Part shown: one piece after another, positions 4,713 to 48,487 of the stretch | Numbering within the stretch: the stretch's first letter is position 1 | How the letters are laid out: every line of letters begins with the position of its first letter | NCBI GenBank assembly: GCA_025642065.1 | Contig: JAODUP010000427.1 | Coordinates: 721,001-785,000 of the forward strand | Reading direction: 5' to 3' | Source: Paralvinella palmiformis | Taxonomy: Eukaryota > Annelida > Polychaeta > Terebellida > Alvinellidae | DNA length: 64,000 bases | Notes under the pieces: generated by a model | The model's database searches: none | What the model was told of the DNA's origin: nothing | The model's input: the letters and a program-made list of their open reading frames with translations, nothing else | Made by a program: the position numbers and the translations under genes

Positions 4713-5383
4713 ATTTCTGAATAATTATGTAATAGAATGAGAATTTTATTTTCTCATGCAGTGTCCAGCATACGATAATCTGCAAAATAAATATTTGTCA
4801 ACTTTTTACATAAATTTCAAGTATATGATTTTAAAATCAAGAATATAACATGCATCAGGGCATTTGGTTTATTTTTGCACTATGCTTTTATTGTATGTTG
4901 CAACATAATTTCATTGCTGTGATGTATACTTACATGTACCAAGATAATTAAGCCTTTATAATATGGGTCTAGGGCCTAAATTGCAGAATAAACAACAACC
5001 AGCCATACAAAAAGAAGTATAATCATAACGAAAAATAATTTATTGATCTCACTATATTTACATATTTAACAAACAATAACAAATCTGCAGTTAGCATTTA
5101 TGCAATGTAAGAGGAAACGTCAGAATTAGTAGGCAGTAGTTGGAATAAATAAAAACAACTTATTAAATATGATGTCTTTAATATGGATACTAAAGGTATG
5201 GGTAATTAATGATGAACAGATGTTTTTTATGTACCAGGGTAACCAGTAATTGAGAACTGCCTTTTAACATTTTGGATTCAATTTTGCAAAAATGAACCAC
5301 ACAATTACAAACAATATAGATGTTGCTCTATAAGGTCCCCAATACAATAACCAGGTATACTGGTATTTTGTTATTAATACCAA

Positions 5384-5500: not shown

Positions 5501-8172
5501 TTAATTCACTGAAAGTGCCCCATAACGGAGCTCACTTTCAAACTGCTCTGCTGTGATCGTGCCATCCAGACGTTCACAGTTTGGGTTAAATACAGAGTAT
5601 GCACTGGGGCCATCACCTCTCTTCGGTCCAGTTCTTGTATTAAAATAGACAAATAAAAGGATAGATAGAACAAAGTAAACAGCACCAAACCCAATTTCAA
5701 CAAACAGACCCCAAATAATTAACCATAACAATATTTTCAGGAAAAGAATAAGTCTGTTGTTGTGTTGTGAAGAAGTATAGCCTGATGTACCAGCCTCGTC
5801 AAAGTACTGTTCTCTGTATGGAATGGGTGAAGCTACTGTAGGCACAACTTTGGCTGATGATGGCTTCACATCATGTTTTTCTACCAGAGAGTTGGTTTGT
5901 TTATGAAGTTCAACTGGTATTTCTTCCTACAAATACAATATGTACATTTTATACATGCGCATATACCCATAACTGACCTGAGGCATTCGATCCAAGTGAG
6001 CATGGAAAAATGTACTGCATTAACATTTGCAAGATTTAAAACACATTGAAGATCCTTTTTTACAGTAAATATAAATTATTCAGGACTAACTGCCAATTAA
6101 ACAACACATCAGAAATGTACTAACCAATCACAAAACAGTTCATAAGAGATTGACAGCAGCACATCAAATGTTTTTAATTATGGACATTTTGTGTAAGGGG
6201 AAGACTAAATGAACAGAGCTACTTCAAAAAATTATGAAGTGAAGTAAAAGGTTTAACACCATTCAGACAGCCATATTAGGATTTGAGTGCAGGTGGTCTG
6301 TGGTCGCCCAAACTACCAATTGGACCAAAGATGTGCTCTGACTTCAGAACACGAAGCAGAAGGAGATGATTTAGGAGATGGCTGAAAATCTGCTATCTTA
6401 GAACTGTGTATACAGTTCTAAGATAGCAGATTTTCAGCCATATAATGATATATCAAATTATCAACAACAGATAATGAATAATGTGTCAACTAAATGATTG
6501 TTTGTCTTAAGACAATTCTTAAGTTTACTGTTTAGTATAAAAAATTGCATATAATGTTCTGGTCTGACTGAAGAAAAAAACTTATTTAATTTAAAATATG
6601 ATAAGGCGGCAAAGTGGCAGAAATTATAATTCTGAAAATGGGGGCTATTGAAGATGGTGCAACCACTGGTTCAGCAATTGAAGTTCTTAATTTATAGTAA
6701 GATTGTGGGATTCTTCTTAAGGATTGCTAGTTGAGAATTTATAAGGGTTTCAAAAACAAAGAAATTGGCAGAAACAACTGATTTTAAAAACACAATCAAG
6801 TGTATTTAGTTGATATTCATATGTAGCATAAGCCATAACATCCAAACCAAGTTTATACTGCTGCAATCATTTATCGATTCAACTGCCATTAAGCATGGCA
6901 ACTTTTAGTAAAGAAATGAAGGAAGCCAGTGTAATCAGTTAATTACTAATTGATTGTTATTAGGTGCACTGCAATGTTGAATTCAATAGCCCTAGCCTGT
7001 ATGTCCTCTGAGCATCCTGTAATAGAGAACCAACTTTGCTGACTTGGCCACATCAAGTTGGTTTTGGAGTTTGTTGTGCACAAGTCCAAACGTTGAAAAG
7101 GCTCTCTCATTTGAAGCAGATCTCTAAAGATCAATCCTTTTATATAGGCTAGGATGTATATGCTAACCAAGCAGAATAACCAATGAAAAAAGTAATTAAT
7201 TGCCAATTGTTACTGAAATATATAGTCTACTGGACTATTTCTGCAGTTCTGCCAAAATGATGACTGAAACCTATTTCTGCCCTGCAGGCAGATACCTATT
7301 TCTGCCACGGCAGAAACCACCAACCCGGATCACAGGCATTCAAATATAAAATTGTGTCAAACTTCAATGCATGGAATATCTCCTTTGTACCATCCAGAAT
7401 CAGACTAGACCAAACCTGCTCTTACCAAATCCAATATGTGATACCTTAATCCAGCTACTTCGTGATGCTATTATAAATATGATATGACAGACTGATTGAA
7501 TATGACAAATCACACAAACCATAATCCACTTGATTCCATGGAAGTCACTACTGTAACCTGTGTAACGACTGGCATTGGTAATGAGTCATGTTAATGCAGA
7601 CAGTATTGTCTGATCCTCATAACATTAACATAATTTTAAAAACTCAATCAACTGTCAAGTCAAATGTGTTAGATCTATTTCATGTTAATAGACCTGTGTT
7701 TCAGGTAAGTGACAGAACTAGAACTAGTAGAAGAAAGCAAATGTCATTTCAGGGGAAATTAAAAATAGAAAGTGGACCAAACTGAGTAGACTCTATTATC
7801 TATAGTATAGATCTAACTATTAGTCTATTACCTAAGACTTGCCACTTGCCTGGCGAGTAGATCTAGACTACACTCTAGATGTAAGAGTAAGACTTAGTTG
7901 TCTAAGACTAAGTCTAAGACACAGACTCTATGAGACTGAGTTAAGACTAAGATTAAAGATAGGGTCACAGACTGTTTTGTTTAGATTTAGATATAATTTA
8001 CTGTATTATCGCTAATTTCGATGGAGCAGATAACTTCCTTAAAGGAGAAACTGTACGCGGAAGACTTGCTTACCTTATTTCGTCTAAACCATTTAAACAA
8101 AGAATATGATCCTGAATTAGCCTGGCGTTCTCTTGCTTTTTTCGCTCGATAAGCAGATAGTTGGGCTTCCAT
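5501..8172 (-). CDS. SAYSD1: SAYSvFN domain-containing protein 1 (two exons)
   Basis: Coding exons are 8172-8074 (99 nt, phase 0, donor GTAAGC) and 5926-5501 (acceptor TTTGTAG), giving 174 residues plus a stop; the human protein is about 183. The N-terminus MEAQLSAYRAKKARERQ matches the family's conserved amphipathic start. Residues about 91-130 form two closely spaced hydrophobic helices, and residues 141-147 are the exact SAYSVFN signature, followed by a short acidic tail. From family knowledge, SAYSD1 is an ER membrane protein that senses UFMylated ribosomes in translocation-associated quality control; the hydrophobic hairpin fits this. The start is chosen because it gives the family N-terminus. 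The frame is open further upstream to 8403, but that part has no family resemblance and is probably 5' UTR. The 2.1-kb intron holds a hAT remnant and a perfect palindrome. Confidence 0.93.
6378..6441. repeat. Perfect 30-bp inverted repeat with 4-nt loop
   Basis: Arms 6378-6407 and 6412-6441 are exact reverse complements, beginning ATGGCTGAAAATCTGC and meeting around a GTAT loop. It lies inside the SAYSD1 intron. Pairing stops abruptly at both outer edges. It could be a foldback element, a recent palindromic duplication, or a hairpin in the intronic transcript. Confidence 0.85.
6992..7123 (-). pseudogene. hAT transposase C-terminal dimerisation fragment
   Basis: In the frame starting at 7123 the minus strand reads SASNERAFSTFGLVHNKL, then NQLDVAKSAKLV, to a TAG at 6992-6994. 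The S-x-x-ERxFS...KL(R/Q)N(R/Q)L pattern is the hallmark of the hAT C-terminal dimerisation region. A stop at 7124-7126 precedes it, so only about 43 codons survive. It sits between GGCAGAAA boxes at 6616 and 6767 and the hAT-like terminus at 7238-7328, so these are probably parts of one internally deleted hAT copy inside the SAYSD1 intron. Confidence 0.75.
7238..7328. mobile_element. hAT-like terminus with TTTCTGCC/GGCAGAAA boxes
   Basis: Read from 7328 inward on the minus strand, the end is CCGGGTTGGTGGTTTCTGCC, similar to the CARGGTTGG start of the other hAT-like elements in this window. Boxes TTTCTGCC occur at 7274-7281 and 7299-7306, GGCAGAAA at 7309-7316 and a TTTCTGCA variant at 7238-7245, several as close inverted pairs. 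The opposite end and the target duplication could not be located. Confidence 0.5.
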
Positions 8173-15250: not shown

Positions 15251-15791
15251 CAAGGTTGGCTTTCTCCCTGGGAGAAAGGTATTTCTCCCCTGGCATGGCC
15301 CCTGACCTGGGCCTGCATGAAAAGGGGAGAAATGCCTTTCTGCCTGGGAGAAACTCCCAGATGTGTTTATTTTACGGTACAGCAGCAGAACAACATGTAA
15401 ATCCCCCTAGTACATTTGTACGGGGATACAATTAATATTACTAATTTATTCATCTGTTTTAATAAAAATAACAAATATTAAAGATTTAATTGGTTTATTA
15501 TATAACATTTGGCACATAGCACTGTATGATTTTGTGTATGAAAATTGTGGTATTAGAACATGTTTATTACAAATATGTGAATCAAAACGATGTACGTACA
15601 TGACCATATAATAGCCAGTTTCCACACTTCCATTCAGTAAACTGTTAAAGTCTATTAATTGGTTATTTTCATGACAATTTTCCCCAAATTTAGTTTCTGC
15701 CATGGGAGAAATTATTTCTGCTGTATTGGGAGAAACTGGGTAATTACAGTGGTTTTCACCACACATATAGGGGAGAAACGTGCCAACCTTG
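15251..15791. mobile_element. 541-bp non-autonomous hAT element with GGGAGAAA arrays
   Basis: The ends are CAAGGTTGGC and GCCAACCTTG, a perfect 10-bp inverted repeat. The flanks are GTCAAAGT (15243-15250) and GTCAAAGC (15792-15799), a 7/8 match to the 8-bp target duplication expected for hAT. TTTCTCCC or GGGAGAAA boxes occur at 15261, 15270, 15282, 15325, 15346, 15704, 15728 and 15771, many as tight inverted pairs, with TTTCTGCC variants at 15337 and 15694. Short open frames inside have no transposase signature, so it depends on a partner in trans. Confidence 0.8.
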
Positions 15792-31658: not shown

Positions 31659-34600
31659 TTACATACGACCAGGCTTAGTAGTTCTATCTTTATAGCCTTT
31701 TATACACGTAGGCAGTTGGTACCATAAATAACCAGTCTGTACGAGATCGTATGGGTCACAGTGTACACTTTGGCTTAGTGGAGTCTTAGTCAATGCTGCT
31801 GGGGTCTCGCATTTACACGCCCAAGAAACGGACTCGACTTCCTTCACATTTTGTCTGTGGCATTCTGTATGCAGACGACAAGCCGGCATACTGTGAAAAG
31901 AGTGTTCACCACCTTTAGCTGTGTTATGGTCATCAGTTTCTATGAAGCTTCTCTGTGACGACACATCGAGGAGTGATGCATTCAGTGGCTCCACTCCAGA
32001 TATGTTAAATTCAGTTTCGTTCGGTCTGCTCCACTCTTCAGTACTGCTGTTGTTTGGATAAATAAAATGCACCGACAAACGGCTTCCACTGCTCGGCAGC
32101 TTGAACCTTGGCTTTGGAATGATTGGCGCTTCACAGGTATACTCCTCTGGCATCTCTAGGAGAACAAACACCCTGGCACACGATCTAAGCTGATGACTTT
32201 CGACAAAGAAAGGTGATGCCGTTAGCTCTCTGAACAGCTGTGCCTTGCACTGACTCAAAGTGAGGATCTTTCCACTGTACAGTGAAGTCGGAAACTGAAT
32301 CATGTAAGATTCTTTTGGCAATACACTAGTTGAGCCTACCAGGATCAATACACGCCTGATTGAGACTGCTGACGTGAATGCCTGTTCTAATGTAGAGATA
32401 ACTTCTGACATGTGCTGGACATACAGCTTTTGCTGGCGTATTTCCAGTCCCTTCCTGGAAAACGACTGATAACCCGGAAGAAGTGTGCAATCTTGCTGTT
32501 TGTTCTGAAAACACACCAAAAAATCAGCTTTAGTTGGTTCTCATGGATAAGATCTAGCTAATATTTATTTCTAAAAATGAATTGTTTCATGTTAAATCGG
32601 GACAAAATATAAATAATACTATGTTACATAAATGCCAAAATAAAGTTGAGTAGGTAAATATCAAATTAAAACTGATTTAATCAACTCATTGTTATGACGG
32701 CTCATCAGAGATTACATAATTATCATCTGCTTTACATGACCCTCTGTATTTAACCAAAGTCATTATTAGGTGTCTGGATTAGAAGGTCGCATATTTATAA
32801 CCTACATCAAGATGAGAACATTAGTATTATTACCAGCTTGATCAGTGATATTTAAAAAAGATTTCTGTCATGCCAAATTAGAATGAAAAATATTAAATAC
32901 TCTCCAAGGACTGAGGTGCAAACTAAACACAAAATATATCATCGTGGGAATGGACAGTTTGTGATGACATGACATTTTAGGTGTCTCATAAATGTCCCAG
33001 TTACCAAAAACCCATAAAAATAGTTCTGTCAACTATAAATACTGTACAATATTTCCAGATGATATTACATGACTGTACTTTCACAGTAAATGCTAAGCAT
33101 CACAATGAATATATAATTTCTTAACAGATTTATTCCAACACAGAGAAAAGTGAACTACTGAAACAGGCAAGACTAATTTACTGGTGACTGGAAAAATTTC
33201 AAGAAAAATACTAAATAAAATAGGGATAATGTTTTCTGGGAATAGTTCACAATATATTATTGTACTAGAAACAAATAAATGAACCAACGTGAGAGATATA
33301 CTATAGAAGGAAAACAAATAAATCAGTAGGCCTGTGTATATACTATGTACACATTTAAATACATTTTGACACTAATGTTTTTGTTTATTTCTGGGCTTCA
33401 TTTATTATCAATGTTGATGTTTTTTAGCCGATAATCTACTTGATCTTCTGATGAAATACTAGTACAGTTAATAGACTGGAAAGCAGTGTTCTCACCTGAA
33501 ATCTAATAACAATGTTTCCCGACACAATTACAACATTTTGGCAAATTATTGTAATCCAGTAGACATTTATGTAACGATATATGGCTAAATTCGCAAGTGC
33601 ACAGCAATCCAAGTTTCCACCAGACGGGGGAAACCAAGAAAATAACATTGCGCTAGTCACAGATCCATCATACAACTTCTATACTGCTTCTCATCACATT
33701 CAATAAAACACTTGAAACCCTGAATATTTATCATTAGAAATAATGTGTATTTAAAGTGTTCAATTCCTGGACGGCCTAGGAACTCTGATCCAAGAAATCT
33801 TGTCATGAATTTGCTATTTTCACTGATCTATCTCACAATGAAACTCGTTTGCTCTTCCATGACAATCTTGTTCAGAGACTCGTCAAAGGTAATGAATGAT
33901 CCAATGCTCTGATGTCACTGATCAGTCTTTCTTTTCAAGTAATGATCCATGCCAAAACATAATATGTAGGCTATCTCGGTGGGATTCATGACAAAATCCA
34001 CAACAATATCACTGTCTAGAAACATACTGCTGAATAGATCACCTATCTTGGTCATCTTATTGTAAGAGAAATGACAGAGTACACATTTGAACTATCTTTG
34101 TTCTCTTAGTTTTAACTGACACTAAGTATGGATGTTCTGCATCAATGGAACAATGTTGTCATTAATAGTATTATAAAGTAGTATTAATTTGTATTATTAA
34201 TACAAATTACACAGATCATCAACGTGAACAGAAACATTTAAATCACCACCAAAATTATGCTTCTTGCTGGGTTCAATTTCATTATGATGTTCAGTAGAAG
34301 TGGAAGTGACTGGGCTAGTGAGCAAACTGAAATGCTGTGACGTGACACAGGTGCTCTCTAGACTGATGCGGATTACAGTTTCTCTTGAGCATTAATATCT
34401 GAGCCATTTTGAATCATCTTCCTCTTGTAAAGTTGCTTCTGGCTCAAACTGTAATGGTTGTATATCATTCATGACATAATTTTAACAAAATAATGCCGTT
34501 TAGTTATGGAATAATTCTTTGCTCACACTTGCTTACATGCTATTAAAGTATTATTGTACAGGCTCTACAGACTTCAGGTCAACCAGATACACTGAAGTGA

Positions 34601-38620: not shown

Positions 38621-39451
38621 CATCAATTTAAAATAATAAAAGTATTTCTAATTAGTTATCATGCTACATGATGATTGGAGCAATAAATTACAGACAACAC
38701 CTGCCATGCAACTATTGAGGTATTCAGCTATAAATATAAAAACAGTCATTTCGGCAATTATTATTATTATTATCTCATATACCTTATAATCATCCTGTCA
38801 ATGATAATGATTTCAATATCATCCCCTAACCATAATCACCTGATCATGCACTTTCCGGGACACCGCAGTTGTATCATGACTTCTGACATGATCCATGCTC
38901 TTATATTATACACAGTGTAGGAGCTAGGATAACGTACATATCCATTTGGACACCTGAGCTGATCTAGCCAAGAAATCACGAGCCTATATCTCGTCATCAC
39001 TCATCATAAATTGTCTCACGACGTCTTATAAATGGTACACCAGTTGATTCATTTTGCTATATACCGTGACCGGTGCTGAAGTATTATTACCATACATAGA
39101 CCATCTTGCCAGACCCATTAAAAACAACTTGTAATCAACGAAATTGTGGAAGAGTAGTTTACTATTAGCTAAGTTTTATCATTCCCTGTTATCGATCTAT
39201 CGCTTCTAAATCGTGTCAGGCTCGTTTATGGGGTGGTCAAGTATTGATCCTAAATCTGTTCAATTGTTGTCAATATAGGTGTGATCTGATAACTTTTCAT
39301 GTTTCATAAACGATTTTTCAAAGCTTAAGATATTTACGTATTATAACGTATAGGTGTATCGATCGAGCCTAATTATCGTTTTCAAGTTTGTTACATTTTT
39401 ATGTTTTCTCTGGCTTCCCTGATAACTCAGGGATGCCTCCATGGACTAATT

Positions 39452-39483
<32 letters not shown>

Positions 39484-39492
<9 letters not shown>

Positions 39493-39664
39493 CGCGGTTG
39501 GCCACATATCTCAAACACCCGAGTTCAAATCTCAGCGTGGGGATGTCTGAAGGTTGTTTCGTCTTTGACTTCGCCTCATTACCTTTGGAGGTCGCTCGAC
39601 CCGTTTAGCCTAGTTTCGGCACAAATTTAGGTGGTCGTAAAACATCAAGCATTTCATCGTTTTC
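39484..39664 (+). repeat. tRNA-derived SINE copy
   Basis: Shares GTCTTTGACTTCGCCTCATT, GGTCGCTCGACCCGTTTAGCC and AAACATCAAGC with the copy at 21470-21657. The head follows directly on an (AT)n array, and its A-box region is degraded. Confidence 0.65.
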
Positions 39665-40336
39665 ATTTAATCATTTCCCTGATAACTATGATTAATATAT
39701 TGGTTTATCATTTGGTAGTCGGTGATCTTAACGATGTGTGGTGTATCAATCAGATGATTATCTATCTTATTTTGGTTGAGTAAACTTACTCACATGTAGG
39801 CTGCCTATACATGATTATGTCAACAATAAATAATAATTATGCATGAGTGCATGCATGGACTTTCCGGTGTATGTGTTTTTTTTTTCGGCATTGTTAAAAC
39901 TCTATTGTGATATATCGTAGCACAATACTCAGAATGAAAGCCAAAAAGCAATATTAATAGCGCTGTAATTTAATTGTTGCGCGCGCAGGTGCGTGTGTGT
40001 GGATCACGCAGCTGGGGATGTCTAACAATTAAGTGACAAAACAAATGCATACACGATCGAAGCTGTAGAACGAAGGGTCGACGCTCTAGGATCTGGAGGA
40101 AAAGGACTACAACTTGCTAAAAATAGCGCAGAGAGTGGGAGAGACACAACGCTGAAGAGTCACGCCAGGTGGAGCTTATAATTCATCAGTGGACTTCCTA
40201 AGGTCAGCTGACCGCGAAATAACATTTAAACCACAACGGCTTATATAACCGATATAAACTTTAAAAAAAACAGTCAAATTACAAAAAGATTGGACGCGGC
40301 ATAGAATAATTATTACATCAACAATAAAGACAAGCC

Positions 40337-40447
<111 letters not shown>

Positions 40448-40605
40448 TGCTGGCTTGTCCTTATTGTTAATGTAATAATTGACTGGGATCGTATAAGATC
40501 CCTCTTCACTGACGCTACCTCATATATATATAACAGTTAAAGTTATGTTAAACCGTAACACTAATATATTGCGTAATAATGTTGGATGTATCAGCTCTAG
40601 TGTAC

Positions 40606-40986
40606 TAGTAGAGAGGCAGATTTAAAAGAGTCGCTTATTTTAGGAGTTCAAATAACTTTGGGTTACAAGCTGGCATCCACCCTAGATCATTAGTCCATAG
40701 GGCTGCGCATCACCCCTGGGTGGATGCCATCTCTGATTTTTCCTAATAGGCGTGTATTAACTATTTTTGTGTGAAATCGGCCTTTTTTTGAAATTACCAT
40801 ATTGTGGGGGTAAGAGAACTAAACATGCTCATAGGTTGGCCAAACATTGCAGCAGAAGAACAAACTAACCACCAAAATGAAGCTTGTAACATGCACCAAG
40901 AGATCATTTTGTCAAATATTGCAATTTACCAGTCGCAAGGGGGTAATTGAGGTCAGGCCCTACTTTGACCCCTTACCTCCCCCAAA
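40606..40986 (+). repeat. Left terminal inverted repeat
   Basis: Outer block to about 40815, then a weaker stretch, then a second matching block at 40951-40986. Inside it TGGCATCCACCC (40671-40682) and GGGTGGATGCCA (40718-40729) form a perfect 12-bp inverted pair nested within the TIR. Confidence 0.8.
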
Positions 40987-41411
40987 TTACCCTTTTCGCC
41001 TAGAAATGCCCCAAAAATGTGTAAAGTTCATAGATTCAGTATATTTATGATATGGAACTTGGAGAAGACAGACAAAGGCAGGTTTTCACCAAGTTTCATC
41101 AACCTGGGGGAATTAGGGGCGAAATGCCGGAGGGTTGCATATCCCCCATTTTCTGGCAAAGACCAGTGAAAAGGAAAAAAATAACATATAATAAAGGTAT
41201 TCCTTTAGAATACATTTATTTTACATTGTATTGACCACCGAACAGGATTTTGTGTTTAGAAATAACTTTTCGGGTCTATATCAGTCCCAGCAAAAGTACT
41301 CTGTGCAACCCCCCCCCCCCATTGCAGCCCTTACCCTAGGCTCTACCCTTTACAACTTGATGATTGTTGTTCCGCATGAAAATGATTTGGGTAGTGAAAT
41401 GATCAATTTGT

Positions 41412-44400
41412 ATGCAGTCTCATTGGTAAGTAATCGTTTTAGTACCTTGTTTCACATAAATTTTGTTTTTCTGGTGAGGTCAAGGTCGGGTTGAATAGGG
41501 GAAATGTTTTCACGGTAAAAACTCTCTGGGAGCGCTACCTAGAGTTACTGACTACAAGGTCAGCGGAAAGCGAACTCCAGGATGACAACAACACATTGCG
41601 GTGGTTTCGCAATAAGGTAAAGAAACATTTTGAGGGGAAGGCCGAGTTCATTGCACAGGAAAATAGAGCTGATTCCCTTCTCATTTTTCCAACTGTATCA
41701 AAGGACCGTGTTACTGCAAAATGGAGGGAGAATGCTGGGGAATTAGAGGCAATGGACACAGAATACAAACTGCAGAAGGCATTCAAAGAACTGGACATTG
41801 ACACTCAGCTCATGAAATCAATGTACCACGTGGGTACCAAGATTAGAAGTGAATTGCAGAATGTAGAATCACATAGTATGTATGATGGCATTGACATTGC
41901 TCATGTTGAAAAAATGGTACCTCAGAACCTTTTCCTTCTTCTCAGTATCATAGTAGGTGACAACGAAAGTGATGAATGTAGGGAAAAGATATTTAGCTTA
42001 GCTCAAGATGTAATCTATGTTGCTTCAAGGGGTAACACCCTTACGCCAAAGCATGTAGGCCTAGCATCTACTGTCCACCACGCAACTAGAAGTAAATCAT
42101 TAGTCCAACTTCTGAACGCTGCTGGTCACTGTGCAAGTTATGAGACAGTTGAGAAAGTAGACACCAGCATCGCCAAAAGTGAAATTGAACTAGAAATGGG
42201 AAACTTTACCCAGTTTGCGGGAGATAACATAAATATAACCGTAGAAACACTAGATGGAAAGGGCATGTTCAATGCTACACAATATGCTGCATTTCAGTAT
42301 GGAAAACAAGAAAACAGCAGCACTGTCAATGGTAATAGGGTAATCAGCAAACAAAAATGCTTTGGTCCATCGTTGCCCCCAGACTTTCATGAAATCCTAC
42401 CATCTGGCTATTCAAAGAAGAAGCGCCCTGCCCCAATCTTCCCCTTGCTTGACTCAGATTGGTTTGAACCTAGTGATGAGTGCTCGGAGTCCACCAGGGC
42501 CAAAGACTTGGCCTGGTTCTTATGTCGAAATAGTAACCCAGATGCGCAGCAGATCCCAAGTTGGACAGGTTTTAACCATGTTGTCTCTACTTTTGAATCT
42601 GAAACTACCAGTGTTGGTCACATGCCAATTATTCCAACCCCAGCCGATGACATGAACACTGTTTACACAGTTCTCGTTAGATGTAAAGCCATTTCGGAGA
42701 AGCTTGGGCAGACATACACTGTAATTTCATTTGATCACGCCTTGCATTGCAGAGCGAAGGAGGTTGTTTGGAGTAAAAGAGATGAATTCGAAAATGTCAT
42801 TGTCAGACTAGGGGGCTTCCACACTGCCATGAATTTTATGAAAGCTATCGGTCAACACATGGATTCTTCAGGGTTAAGAGATGTGTGGGTTGAGAGTGGT
42901 GTATATGGTGAAAACACAACCTCGCATATGCTAACAGGGCATGCTTACAATAAGGCAATTCGTGGACATAAACTAACATATGAAGCACTCTGGAGAATAC
43001 TCTGGCCCAAGTTCCAGGAGTGGGCTGTGCAAAACGGAAAGTCACTGCATGAAAACCTATTGGCGGTCGTTGACGATGTTGTGGAAAAGTTCACAACCAA
43101 AGATGAAGATGTCACTGATTATTTTTGTGCACTGGTTAGAGTTACATCTACTGTACTTGATCCGCTGAAGGAGTTTGATGAATCAGAGTCGGCTCACCCA
43201 ACATTCACATTTTGGCGGCAGTATATGGAGATGGTTTCCATTTTGATGGGATTCATTAGAGCGGACCGTGAAGGCAACTGGGCCCTTCATTTGGAACTTT
43301 TCTCAAAGATGTTGCCTTGGTTTGCCATTTATGATCACACTAATTACGCTCGCTGGGGGCCAGTGTACCTGGCTGATATGAGAGCTCTCCCAACTACAGC
43401 ACCAGAGGTCTTCAATGAATTCGTTGCTGGTCGGTTTTCAATCAAGAGAAATGAGGGTAAATTCAAACAGGTGGCGACTGACCAGACACTTGAACACGTC
43501 AACCGGATTGCTAAAGTGAGTGGAGGTATTGTAGGGATCACACACATAGATTCTGCACGAGATAGGTGGTGTTTGACATACAATGAGCGTGCCAGAATTT
43601 CAGATGATACCCTGCGTCTCTTTGGCCAACAGCATGATGATACAAATGACGACTGGACTCATAGGGATGCTGGCAAAGCCGGTTTGAAGAGAGACGAGGA
43701 AGATGTCAGAAAGCTGATGAAAGAGTTCGAGAGGTTCCAGGTCTTTTCACATTCCACATCTGAACTGATGAACTTGTCAAACAATGACATCGTACCTGAT
43801 GAAATCACATCAGATATTCTGTCTGCCGAGGGAAAAGGGCACAAATTAGTGACTGAATTTGTGAAATCTCGTCTTGATGAACAGGACACCGACTTTTACT
43901 CCAGAATCGCACAGATCAAAGCCAAGACCATGGCAACTATGTACAAGACAACTGTTCAAGTCAACAAGGATACTGTCACTGTTGTGAAGGCAGAACGTGA
44001 TATATTCAGAAGGCTGCTAGTTGTGAGAGATAGTGGACGGGAAGTTGACCTTGGAAGCGTCCTCAAGTATGAGCTTTCCCCTGTACCGTTGGCGCTAGCG
44101 AGCACAAATCAAAAATTGAACACAACAACCAAGGCTGATCTGGCCGACATCCTCACAGAATCTATTGAAGTGAAACAAAAGCTTCCCGCCAGCAGCAGTC
44201 CAACTTGCCTTCTAGTTGACGGTCCAGCCCTAATTCAGGCAATTGGTAAACCAGAGCATGCAAGAACATTTCAGGATCTAGGCAATGTATTTGTTAAGAA
44301 CATTTTGGCTAAGTTCAAGTCCGGTTACCCAAGAGTTGATGTTCTATTTGATCGCTATCAGGAGACATCGATAAAGGATGGAGCACGAGCAAATCGAGTC

Positions 44401-45345
44401 GGAAGTTCACAGCCAATCAGACGGAAAATAGACTCGGGCACAGTCAAATTGCCTCATTGTTGGTCCAAGTTCATGAGCCACACATCTAACAAGTCTGAAT
44501 TGGCAACCTTCATATCAAATGAATTGAAGAACTGTTCTGAGCTTCCTTCAGACTGTGAGTTGGTACTTGGAGGGGGCTTCAGTGATATTAGAATGGTGTG
44601 GTCATCAGCATCACGAGACCTTTCCCACTTAATCAGCACCACAGAAGAAGCAGACACTAGGATTTTTGTACATGCTAAGGATGCTTTAGCTTGTGGGTAT
44701 CAACGCGTGGTCATCAGTTGTCGAGACACAGATGTCTTGGTACTAGCACTTGGCCACAGATCTGAACTTTCTCCAGAGATTTGGATTCATTCTGGCACTT
44801 CAAAAGATCCAAAGTACATCCCTGTCCATTCAATCAATCTGGCCCCATCAGTGATTGACAATCTAATGGCATTCCATGCAGTCACTGGTTGTGATACAAC
44901 CAGCCAATTCTCAGGTAAAGGAAAACATACCTGCTGGAAAGTATTTTTAAAGGAACCAGACTTACTACAAGCGATTGGCGGTTCTGCAGAATGCAGTGAA
45001 GATGGACGAAAGGGTGCAGAAAAGTTTGTTTGCCACCTGTTCGGCTACGGAAATTGTGGGTCCGTGAATGAAGTTAGGCTGAAGATGTTTGTGAAGGGGA
45101 AGTCCTCCATAGAAGCCTTACCACCTACTGAGGACGCTCTTTCTTTTCATCTCATGCGCAGTAACTACCAAGCTTTCATCTGGAAGACAGCCCTTACGAA
45201 TGACACGGATCTACCCTCTCCAGATGGGAACGGATGGACCGTTAAAGCTGGGAAACTTACGCCGGTGCTAATGTCCTTGCAATCAGTGCCAAAATCATGC
45301 ATGGCTTTGGTCAGTTGCTCTTGTAAGAAGTGCAACCAGATGTGA
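41412..45345 (+). CDS. Transposon protein with FEN1/XPG-like nuclease region
   Basis: The uninterrupted frame runs from 41491 to a TGA at 45343-45345 (1,284 codons) with no ATG until codon 88. A better start is an ATG at 41412 (MQSHW) spliced over a 73-nt intron (41426-41498; GTAAGT to AATAG), giving 1,286 residues; this is a prediction. Numbering codons from 41491, residues 241-500 show AGDNINITVETLDGKGMFNA, VISFDHALH, VRLGGFHTAMNFMKAIG and HMLTGHAYNKAIRGH, motifs I recall from multicopy unnamed proteins of cnidarians and molluscs. Residues 907-1140 carry LLVDGPAL (D910), VLFDRYQETSIKDGARANR (D954, K962, R969), EEAD (E1053, D1055), CRDTDVLVL (D1079, D1081) and VTGCDTTS (D1135), which match the seven acidic positions of FEN1-type nucleases in order and spacing. 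The probable role is the element's own mobilisation enzyme. The C-terminus is cut by a frameshift (see findings). Confidence 0.75.
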
Positions 45346-45424
45346 CTGTCTAAAGGCTGGCTTTCTCGCTTGCACAAGCGCTTGCAACTGTGAAGGGTTG
45401 TGTCAAATGGATGAAGATGATTAA
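45341..45424 (+). pseudogene. Out-of-frame Cys-rich tail of the transposon protein
   Basis: The main frame ends in SCSCKKCNQM-stop. In the next frame, from TGT at 45341 to a TAA at 45422-45424, the DNA encodes CDCLKAGFLACTSACNC and then EGLCQMDEDD. This continues the Cys-rich pattern without a break, so a single-base shift near 45340 separates the tail from the body. Homologous proteins in my recollection end in a similar Cys-rich motif. Confidence 0.7.
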
Positions 45425-45701
45425 TTAACTTAATTAAGCATGGTGACAACAGCAGTTAAAGTCAGTATGTTCTCAAACTGTTGGAACTGTCGTAAAGGTT
45501 TGACCCCCCCCCCCCGTCCCCGTCCTCACCCCCTCCCCATTGCTAAGTGACATGTTTTTAGAAAAAGATGACGATTGTAACTAAGCTTCTAATGTTACAG
45601 AGTTACTTATTGAATTTACAAAAAAAAATTGTGGTATTAGAACAGTAAAGCGTCTTTTCTAAACGGTGGCATTTTTTAGGGAAAAAAGTTGTGAAAGGTC
45701 A

Positions 45702-46059
45702 TTTTTGGGGGGTAAGGGGTCAAAGTAGGGTCCGACCCCTGTCTCCATGTGGCAGATACAATTTTGTAACTTTTCATGAATAAACTTGTTAGAGTATATT
45801 ACACACTTCATTTTCATGGTTGATTTGTTTGCATATCTTGAAAAGTGACGATATAACGGCCCTTTCTACATCCCCTACCCCCAAAATATGCCCATTTTCG
45901 GAAAATTCCATTTTCACACAAAAAGGGTTAATACACGACTATAAGGAAAAATCAGAGGTGGCATCCACCCAGGGAGGATGGGCCCACCTACGGGCTAATG
46001 ATATAGGGTGGATACCAGCTTGTAACCCAAAGTGATTTGGGGTCTCTGCCTCTCTACTA
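45702..46059 (-). repeat. Right terminal inverted repeat
   Basis: Complement of the left repeat. It keeps the nested pair as TGGCATCCACCC (45959-45970) and GGGTGGATACCA (46006-46017; one mismatch). It includes a run of G at about 45706-45712. Confidence 0.8.
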
Positions 46060-46062
46060 TAC

Positions 46063-46141
46063 GTATTTCTCGGGCAATATAGAAATCCCGATGTCGTAAT
46101 TCTCCTTTTATTAGCCTTGCGCATGTATTACAAATTGAATT

Positions 46142-46186
<45 letters not shown>

Positions 46187-48487
46187 CGCTACTGATTTCT
46201 TAAACAAATAATTAAGCGTGGATATCATATACTGAGTGATCCTGGACAAGCTGGGATCGCCGAATGGTTCCAGACTGAACCTCTCCGATTGAACGACCAT
46301 GCATACGGTTGGAAAATGTTCCAAGATTAATTAAGAGTTAATTAAGAGGCTAGGAAAATGCTCCCAGATGAATACAGCTTCTAGACTGTAATTCTAGATT
46401 GGAATATGATACACAGGATGATTGATGTTTTACGGCCACTTTTTGATCTGTAGTCCAACACGCTACCGCTACATCACGGAGGCGTCCCAATATGAAACAC
46501 CTGAAGGAACTTTTCACATGTTGATAAATTGTCTATTACAAATCCAAAAAGGAGTCTTTTAAATAACATTTTATCAAGAAATACGGTTTTGTATAACAAT
46601 GTGGTACACTTGTCGTTCATATTTTTGTATGCTAGACTTTTAATTTAATGATAATTTTAGATAGACTTCTAGATAGACAAAGAAACATGCAACCATCAGC
46701 CTTATGTTTATTTACACGCATTATAAATGTCGCTTAACAACCTTTCATTTTTTAATTATAATATGTGATATTTAGGACTGCAACGTCCGGGTGAAAGATT
46801 TTTAATCAGGTTGGCAGGTCTAAAAAAACTGCTCTAAACATCGATAATTCTGTTATGATACGAGATCAAGAAACCTATATTGAAACTTACATTTTGGAAT
46901 TATATTTTTCTGGTGATTTATTTCATATTATTTTGATTATGTTGTCATGAGGTCTGACTGGCAGTGGCGATTTTGAGTGATGAAAGCTGACTGCGATCGA
47001 GCCCCGACAAATAATTCTATCTAATTCTATAATAATAGCAGCAACACAATAAAATAAACAGAAAGAAAGCGTTATATTTAACAAATTGAATCGATCTGGT
47101 TTTGTGAAAAACAATCGTGAATTTACAAACGCGTATCTTAATTAGTTATTTCTTCCATGCTATTTCACTGGGTACGCGGCGTCGCTGACCCGAAAACCGG
47201 ACTCGATCTCGGGATCACGGTCTGTGGATGCATCGTGGAAATCGTGCATTCATTAGACTCGATCCACGTCATATGTATCCTGGGGCCTACACATATCTAG
47301 CTGCCTTAAGCAAGAGGTTCGAATCTTCGTGACAGTGGAGTACATAGAGATTTTGGGTTCTCCTCACATGAATCCAAGTCTTACCACAAATGTTTTGTGG
47401 TAAATGGCTAGTCTGCTGTCGCAAAATAAAAACCGGCAATAAAAATTAGACGAAAAGACGATAATTAAGGGGGGGGGGGCGATATAAATTCCAAACATTA
47501 ACATATCTACTGGTGTACATTATCCGATTTTGATCATTTTTAAATAATTGTTTTTTTAAACACAATTTTATCATGTACTTTTTATTACAGGATGAGCTAT
47601 TAAAAATATCGAAACTACTACGGTTTTAGTCCTGACTACAGTTTTTGTGTCCATGTGTTGCATGAAATAAACATCTCTGATCTCTCAACGTTCAGAAAAA
47701 AATGTGAGAAGTGTAATAATCACATTGTAATAATTACAGCCCAGTGTTCCGTACGTCTGCAGAGTGGATTGATGTTGCATAGCTGCTGAAGTTCACAATG
47801 TACTGCATTACAGATCTCCAGGTTGTTAGATAAGTTCTTAGTGCTTTTCACGCAAAACTATTTATGAGATGGATCTTACTTTAATAAATGTTTATTAGCA
47901 ACAGCTTCTTCAGAGATATACTCACACAACCTAGCTATCCCATTCAACGAAGTCAGACATACACAATAGGAGTACTAGCTATATATATATATATATATAT
48001 ATATAGTAGCTATTTTACTGTTGATTTTATATACAGGAATATCTTCCAAACATTCTTTTTATATTAATAAATCTATGATATAGCTGTCATGCCTTTAGGC
48101 TTATACTTATAGTGAGCCAGTGACAGCTTAAAGTAATATCTCATGCTATGGGGTTTTAGTGAGTGAACGTTTGTTTAATCTGTCCTAGTCACTGCTGAAA
48201 GATGTGTCTGAGGGGTAACTCCACAAAGAAATGAGATAATCGGATGAAACAATACCCAAACACGGGCAACAATAGGATTTGAAACCCGACGTCTGCAGCA
48301 GAGCACTATATTATAAACTTCGTTTTAGGAGAGTAGGCCTACATTTTTTTTTAGCATGTTAGATAGATCTGTGTACTGTCTCTTTTCTTCAATTATATGG
48401 TAATCAAGCACCGAATTAAAGTGATTTTAATGTTACATATTACATGTCATAATACTTTAAAATAAATGGCAATAGAAAGGAATAGTA
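46063..48487. other. Repeat-rich intergenic stretch
   Basis: Contains (TC)n(AT)n at 46140-46187, an internally deleted SINE at about 46420-46486 (minus), a run of ten G near 47470, (AT)n at about 47981-48004 and tRNA-like fragments near 47320 and 48280. No exon is recognised. Confidence 0.5.

Follow-up and report, generated by a model that had tools for sequence, protein, structure and literature searches.

A 64 000-nucleotide stretch of the genome of the annelid Paralvinella palmiformis (positions 721 001–785 000 of contig JAODUP010000427.1, assembly GCA_025642065.1; hereafter the window) contains, at 40606–46059, a 5454 bp element whose ends were read from the sequence and from sibling copies in the same genome. 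The element, a likely member of the AcademX group, is very probably a damaged DNA transposon in which one reading frame encodes both a predicted DDE transposase domain and a predicted nuclease domain of the FEN1/XPG fold. Strand cutting and joining most likely fall to the DDE domain, and the nuclease would trim or cut a branched intermediate. The locus comprises the following features (window coordinates).

40603–40605, unstranded: left target-site duplication (TSD), TAC; from the sequence and from exact 3 bp TSDs in 5/5 two-ended copies
40606–40994, + strand: left terminal inverted repeat (TIR), starting TAGTAGAGAGGCAGA; from repeat alignments, with the same start in siblings
41475–41478 (approximate), + strand: junction of a ∼1 kb internal deletion; from siblings L040 and L031 and from tblastn with P0001
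41491–45345, + strand: open reading frame (ORF) for transposase and nuclease, 1284 residues from TTG; from the ORF listing and at least 44 homologous proteins
42043–43632, + strand: predicted RNase H-fold DDE domain, approximately residues 185–714 (D245, D415, H444, E668); from model m4f6f1bc8ef38, VIA matches to transposases and the triad columns
44128–45222, + strand: predicted FEN1/EXO1/XPG-fold nuclease domain, approximately residues 880–1244
45316–45421, + strand: C-terminal cysteine-rich domain of the CXC type, interrupted by an 8 bp deletion near 45340; from sibling comparison
45694–46059, − strand: right TIR; from repeat alignments, with the same end point in siblings
46060–46062, unstranded: right TSD, TAC; from the sequence and sibling TSDs

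The terminal 15 bases of the two ends form a perfect inverted match (TAGTAGAGAGGCAGA, starting at 40606, with its complement ending at 46059). An ungapped alignment of the TIRs covers 169 nt at 82% identity, a gapped alignment pairs 40649–40994 with 46039–45694 (259 of 356 columns identical) and a permissive local alignment scores 399, compared with a maximum of 163.5 in 200 single-base shuffles. The resulting arms of ∼389 bp (left) and ∼366 bp (right) fit the 360–380 bp inverted repeats described in an initial annotation of the window. No second copy of the element ends was found elsewhere in the window, except for a 20 bp match at 15541–15560. Simple repeats (CA, TA and GA) lie near both ends of the element (∼40340–40450 and 46140–46186) and show a partial mutual inverted match.

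A search of the genome (594 Mb, 2597 contigs) with the window protein, of the kind suggested in the initial annotation, gave at least 50 matches (36 of 1394 candidates scored) and fixed both the ends of the element and the length of its TSD. Of the 19 loci inspected (stretches at 17 places plus L001 and L025), five retain both ends, the window copy included, and all five are flanked by perfect 3 bp duplications (TAC, AGA, TAA, ACT and ATA). The fourth flanking base is mismatched in each of the five, so that a 4 bp TSD fails throughout. The 3 bp duplications of the siblings favour TAC/TAC over TA/TA, the other flank initially considered, which was dropped. The one-ended siblings have identical end points with few base changes, and the initially proposed boundaries of 40606 and 46059 are therefore confirmed. 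Since siblings with TSDs of their own share common termini around a common gene, the repeat pair and the gene constitute a single mobile element. More distant matches, at 32–48% identity, are present on G000 contigs C555, C59, C1830, C11 and C1164, which suggests that this genome holds additional families related to the element.

The ORF contains no internal stop and is the sole ORF of at least 120 residues within 39000–48000; its 1284 residues agree with the one gene of about 1286 residues noted initially. Homologous proteins were assembled in two lists. The first holds at least 44 proteins, 43/44 of which were combined with the window protein in alignment A1, leaving out P0039 as a reverse-transcriptase chimera; this Nymphon striatum protein joins a piece of the family to a reverse transcriptase domain, perhaps through a chimeric gene model. 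A second protein search, widening the family, returned 114 proteins. The large alignment has 122 rows, the window protein and 121 proteins (840–1749 residues) taken from 143; coverage of both domains exceeds 70% in 95 rows, and a tree was calculated from 88 rows. With the window protein as query, no relative was found among viral contigs or prokaryotic genome contigs. One relative, P0060, is labelled as coming from a bacterial metagenome bin (Sedimenticola), perhaps because of eukaryotic DNA within the bin.

The window protein is predicted to contain an RNase H-fold DDE domain. Pfam DUF6589 matches residues 416–676; Foldseek alone did not recognize the transposase half, and VIA gave matches to transposases. 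Among the 95 two-domain rows, the window protein included, D245, D415 and E668 are the sole exceptionless acidic columns (91/91, 94/94 and 95/95, respectively). The triad is complete in 90 rows, and the other five are gapped, four at D245 and one at D415.

The C-terminal part of the protein is predicted with high confidence to adopt the FEN1/EXO1/XPG nuclease fold, and the structure prediction thus bears out the FEN1/XPG-type region of the initial annotation. The seven acidic residues (D910, D954, E1053, D1055, D1079, D1081 and D1135) and the basic residues K962 and R969 are all present where they had been placed, and all seven positions are occupied by D or E in 79 of the 95 rows. The nuclease was missed by sequence searches of Pfam (no XPG match) and the PDB; structure prediction recognized its fold. 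The domain resembles the FEN1/EXO1/XPG 5′ nucleases in its predicted fold, its seven acids and a basic pair spaced seven residues apart, but differs in sequence (9–17% identity in the nuclease matches listed) and in being fused to a transposase.

The window copy is damaged at both ends of its gene, by an N-terminal deletion and a C-terminal frameshift. Its open frame is longer than that of any other match listed, none of which spans residues 1–1284. At the deletion point (∼41475) L040 contains an extra 1045 bp and L031 an extra ∼995 bp. Longer relatives (18 rows of more than 1450 residues were used) open with a cysteine/histidine-rich N-terminal domain, which is present in siblings L031, L038 and L040 and missing from the window copy; in L031 and L040 it sits inside the ∼1 kb that the window copy lacks. 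Residues 7–260 of P0001 are found by tblastn in L040, L038 and, in two pieces, L031, compared with residues 229–260 only in the window copy. A profile of this domain built from the 18 long relatives yielded no convincing match within the window (lowest E value 0.44), because the ∼1 kb has been deleted, as the siblings show. At the other end, 8 bp near 45340 are missing from the window copy and present in all ten siblings whose alignment spans this point; in two others only the sequence beyond it aligns. The deletion shifts the frame and splits the CXC-type domain between two frames. Pfam TCR/CXC was found in 3 of 28 family members scanned, and the CXC region has a weak match to LIN54 (E value 0.042). 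Siblings L031 and L046 carry ∼146 bp, near element position 5053 and just inside the right TIR, that are not in the window copy.

Ten of the 95 two-domain rows (P0026, P0027, P0030, P0031, P0033 and P0045–P0049) have lost the nuclease site, defined here as at least three of the seven acids not being D or E, a cut-off chosen once the data had been inspected. Another six rows, in which one or two acids are absent (in one case because of a gap), were not counted in this group. All ten lost-site rows keep the DDE triad and H444, with a nuclease domain coverage of at least 96%. At the seven acid positions they retain the same residue in 23 of 70 cells (31 of 70 with D and E pooled), compared with 186 of 250 cells in 25 further columns of the nuclease domain, selected for at least 93% conservation across the remaining 85 rows. 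Thus, the nuclease domain persists without its acids. K881, Y956, K962 and R966, which lie outside the seven acids, are also largely lost. A quick tree calculated for the transposase region (88 rows) places the lost-site rows in one group, with a support of 92 in the Shimodaira–Hasegawa-like approximate likelihood-ratio test (SH-aLRT), below the tool’s 95 mark; the trait needs one change on this tree, and none of 500 shuffles gave a value as low. The contigs that encode the lost-site proteins are all short (3.9–7.0 kb). A group that has lost this site and kept its DDE triad may be a new result.

The same contrast between acids and other columns would be expected if the nuclease domain were a structural or DNA-binding part only, with cleavage not needed for transposition. 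We regard this as unlikely overall: all seven acids in 79 of the 95 rows speak for selected catalysis in most lineages, and the ten lost-site rows might represent domesticated genes, or elements for which another nuclease steps in. Much less probable is the mechanism put forward in the initial annotation, in which the flap-type nuclease would itself be the transposition enzyme and no DDE enzyme would take part. The confidently predicted fold and the presence of the acids are in its favour, but the same protein contains a predicted RNase H-fold domain with the exceptionless D245/D415/E668 triad, and ten relatives without at least three of the nuclease acids still keep that triad. The initial interpretation is therefore only partly supported; it saw neither the DDE domain nor the deletion and frameshift of the window copy. 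That the gene is a domesticated host gene and not a transposon, for which the long open frame of the window copy might be taken as an indication, is more improbable still in view of the at least 50 genome matches, the TIRs and TSDs and the damage to this copy. Finally, no support was found for the long repeats belonging to a different element into which the gene inserted by chance, a possibility already raised in the initial annotation, and the siblings, in which the gene is likewise enclosed by these termini and each of the five two-ended copies has its own 3 bp TSD, leave this with a negligible probability.

The nuclease of AcademX transposons is of the XPG type. AcademX is described with TSDs of 3 or 4 bp and AcademH with TSDs of 9 or 10 bp, and these are linked to the encoded nuclease and helicase, respectively (PMC10045372); Academ is listed among the superfamilies that have a DDD/E transposase (PMC9587614), curated bivalve Academ elements have a mean length of 5565 bp (PMC10294476) and one account mentions only a RecQ helicase for Academ (PMC3627910). 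The combination of a DDE transposase, an encoded nuclease and 3–4 bp TSDs has thus already been published for AcademX, and this kind of element is known. The present element shares with AcademX a DDD/E domain, an encoded nuclease and 3 bp TSDs, together with TIRs, and by these features it is most likely an AcademX element; it differs in the damage to the window copy, a loss of ∼1 kb with the N-terminal domain and a frameshift. AcademH belongs to the same superfamily but has a helicase and 9–10 bp TSDs (PMC10045372), in contrast to the 3 bp TSD here. No helicase family was found when the window protein was scanned against Pfam, and the nearest to a helicase among the 28 family members scanned was one weak Pox_D5 match (E value 0.038). 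AcademH was rejected on both the helicase and the TSD length. The RAG1/Transib, hAT (Hermes) and Mutator-like (ISCth4) transposases were placed among the closest known systems. Among the papers searched, none contained Academ together with XPG (whole words) and none contained DUF6589; the Academ passages covered report no test of the role of the nuclease.

Outside the element, an open frame at 31659–32519 (− strand) matches Pfam p31comet (E value 5.1e-07) and another at 5501–5869 (− strand) matches Pfam SAYSvFN (E value 1.9e-28); both probably represent exons of host genes. Together with the size of the genome, these p31comet-like and SAYSvFN-like coding pieces are in keeping with nuclear DNA of an animal.

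In DDE-catalysed transposition the enzyme releases the 3′ ends of an element and joins them to the target, so that the 5′ strand still has to be processed; the substrates of FEN-type nucleases are 5′ flaps and junctions. The exceptionless triad, together with its retention in the lost-site group, points to the DDE domain as the probable engine of strand cutting and joining, with the nuclease as an accessory. Because its site is kept in most rows, the nuclease probably does useful chemistry, and the match between a 5′-flap activity and the 5′ strand left by a DDE enzyme favours cleavage of this non-transferred strand at the ends of the element or clean-up of the flap that joining leaves behind. 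DNA binding would fall to the CXC domain and to the N-terminal cysteine/histidine domain that the window copy has lost. By analogy, AcademX might combine in a single protein a division of labour like that of Tn7, the DDE half processing the 3′ strand and the flap nuclease the other, with one lineage having switched its nuclease off and moving, or serving its host, by the DDE domain alone; we offer this as a tentative model that is rather unlikely as a whole. A flap-type nuclease in a TIR transposon is thus real as far as prediction goes, yet it falls within a group that has already been described. Full-site relatives stand beside a group that lacks the nuclease site and keeps the triad, a natural experiment from which the role of the nuclease may be read.
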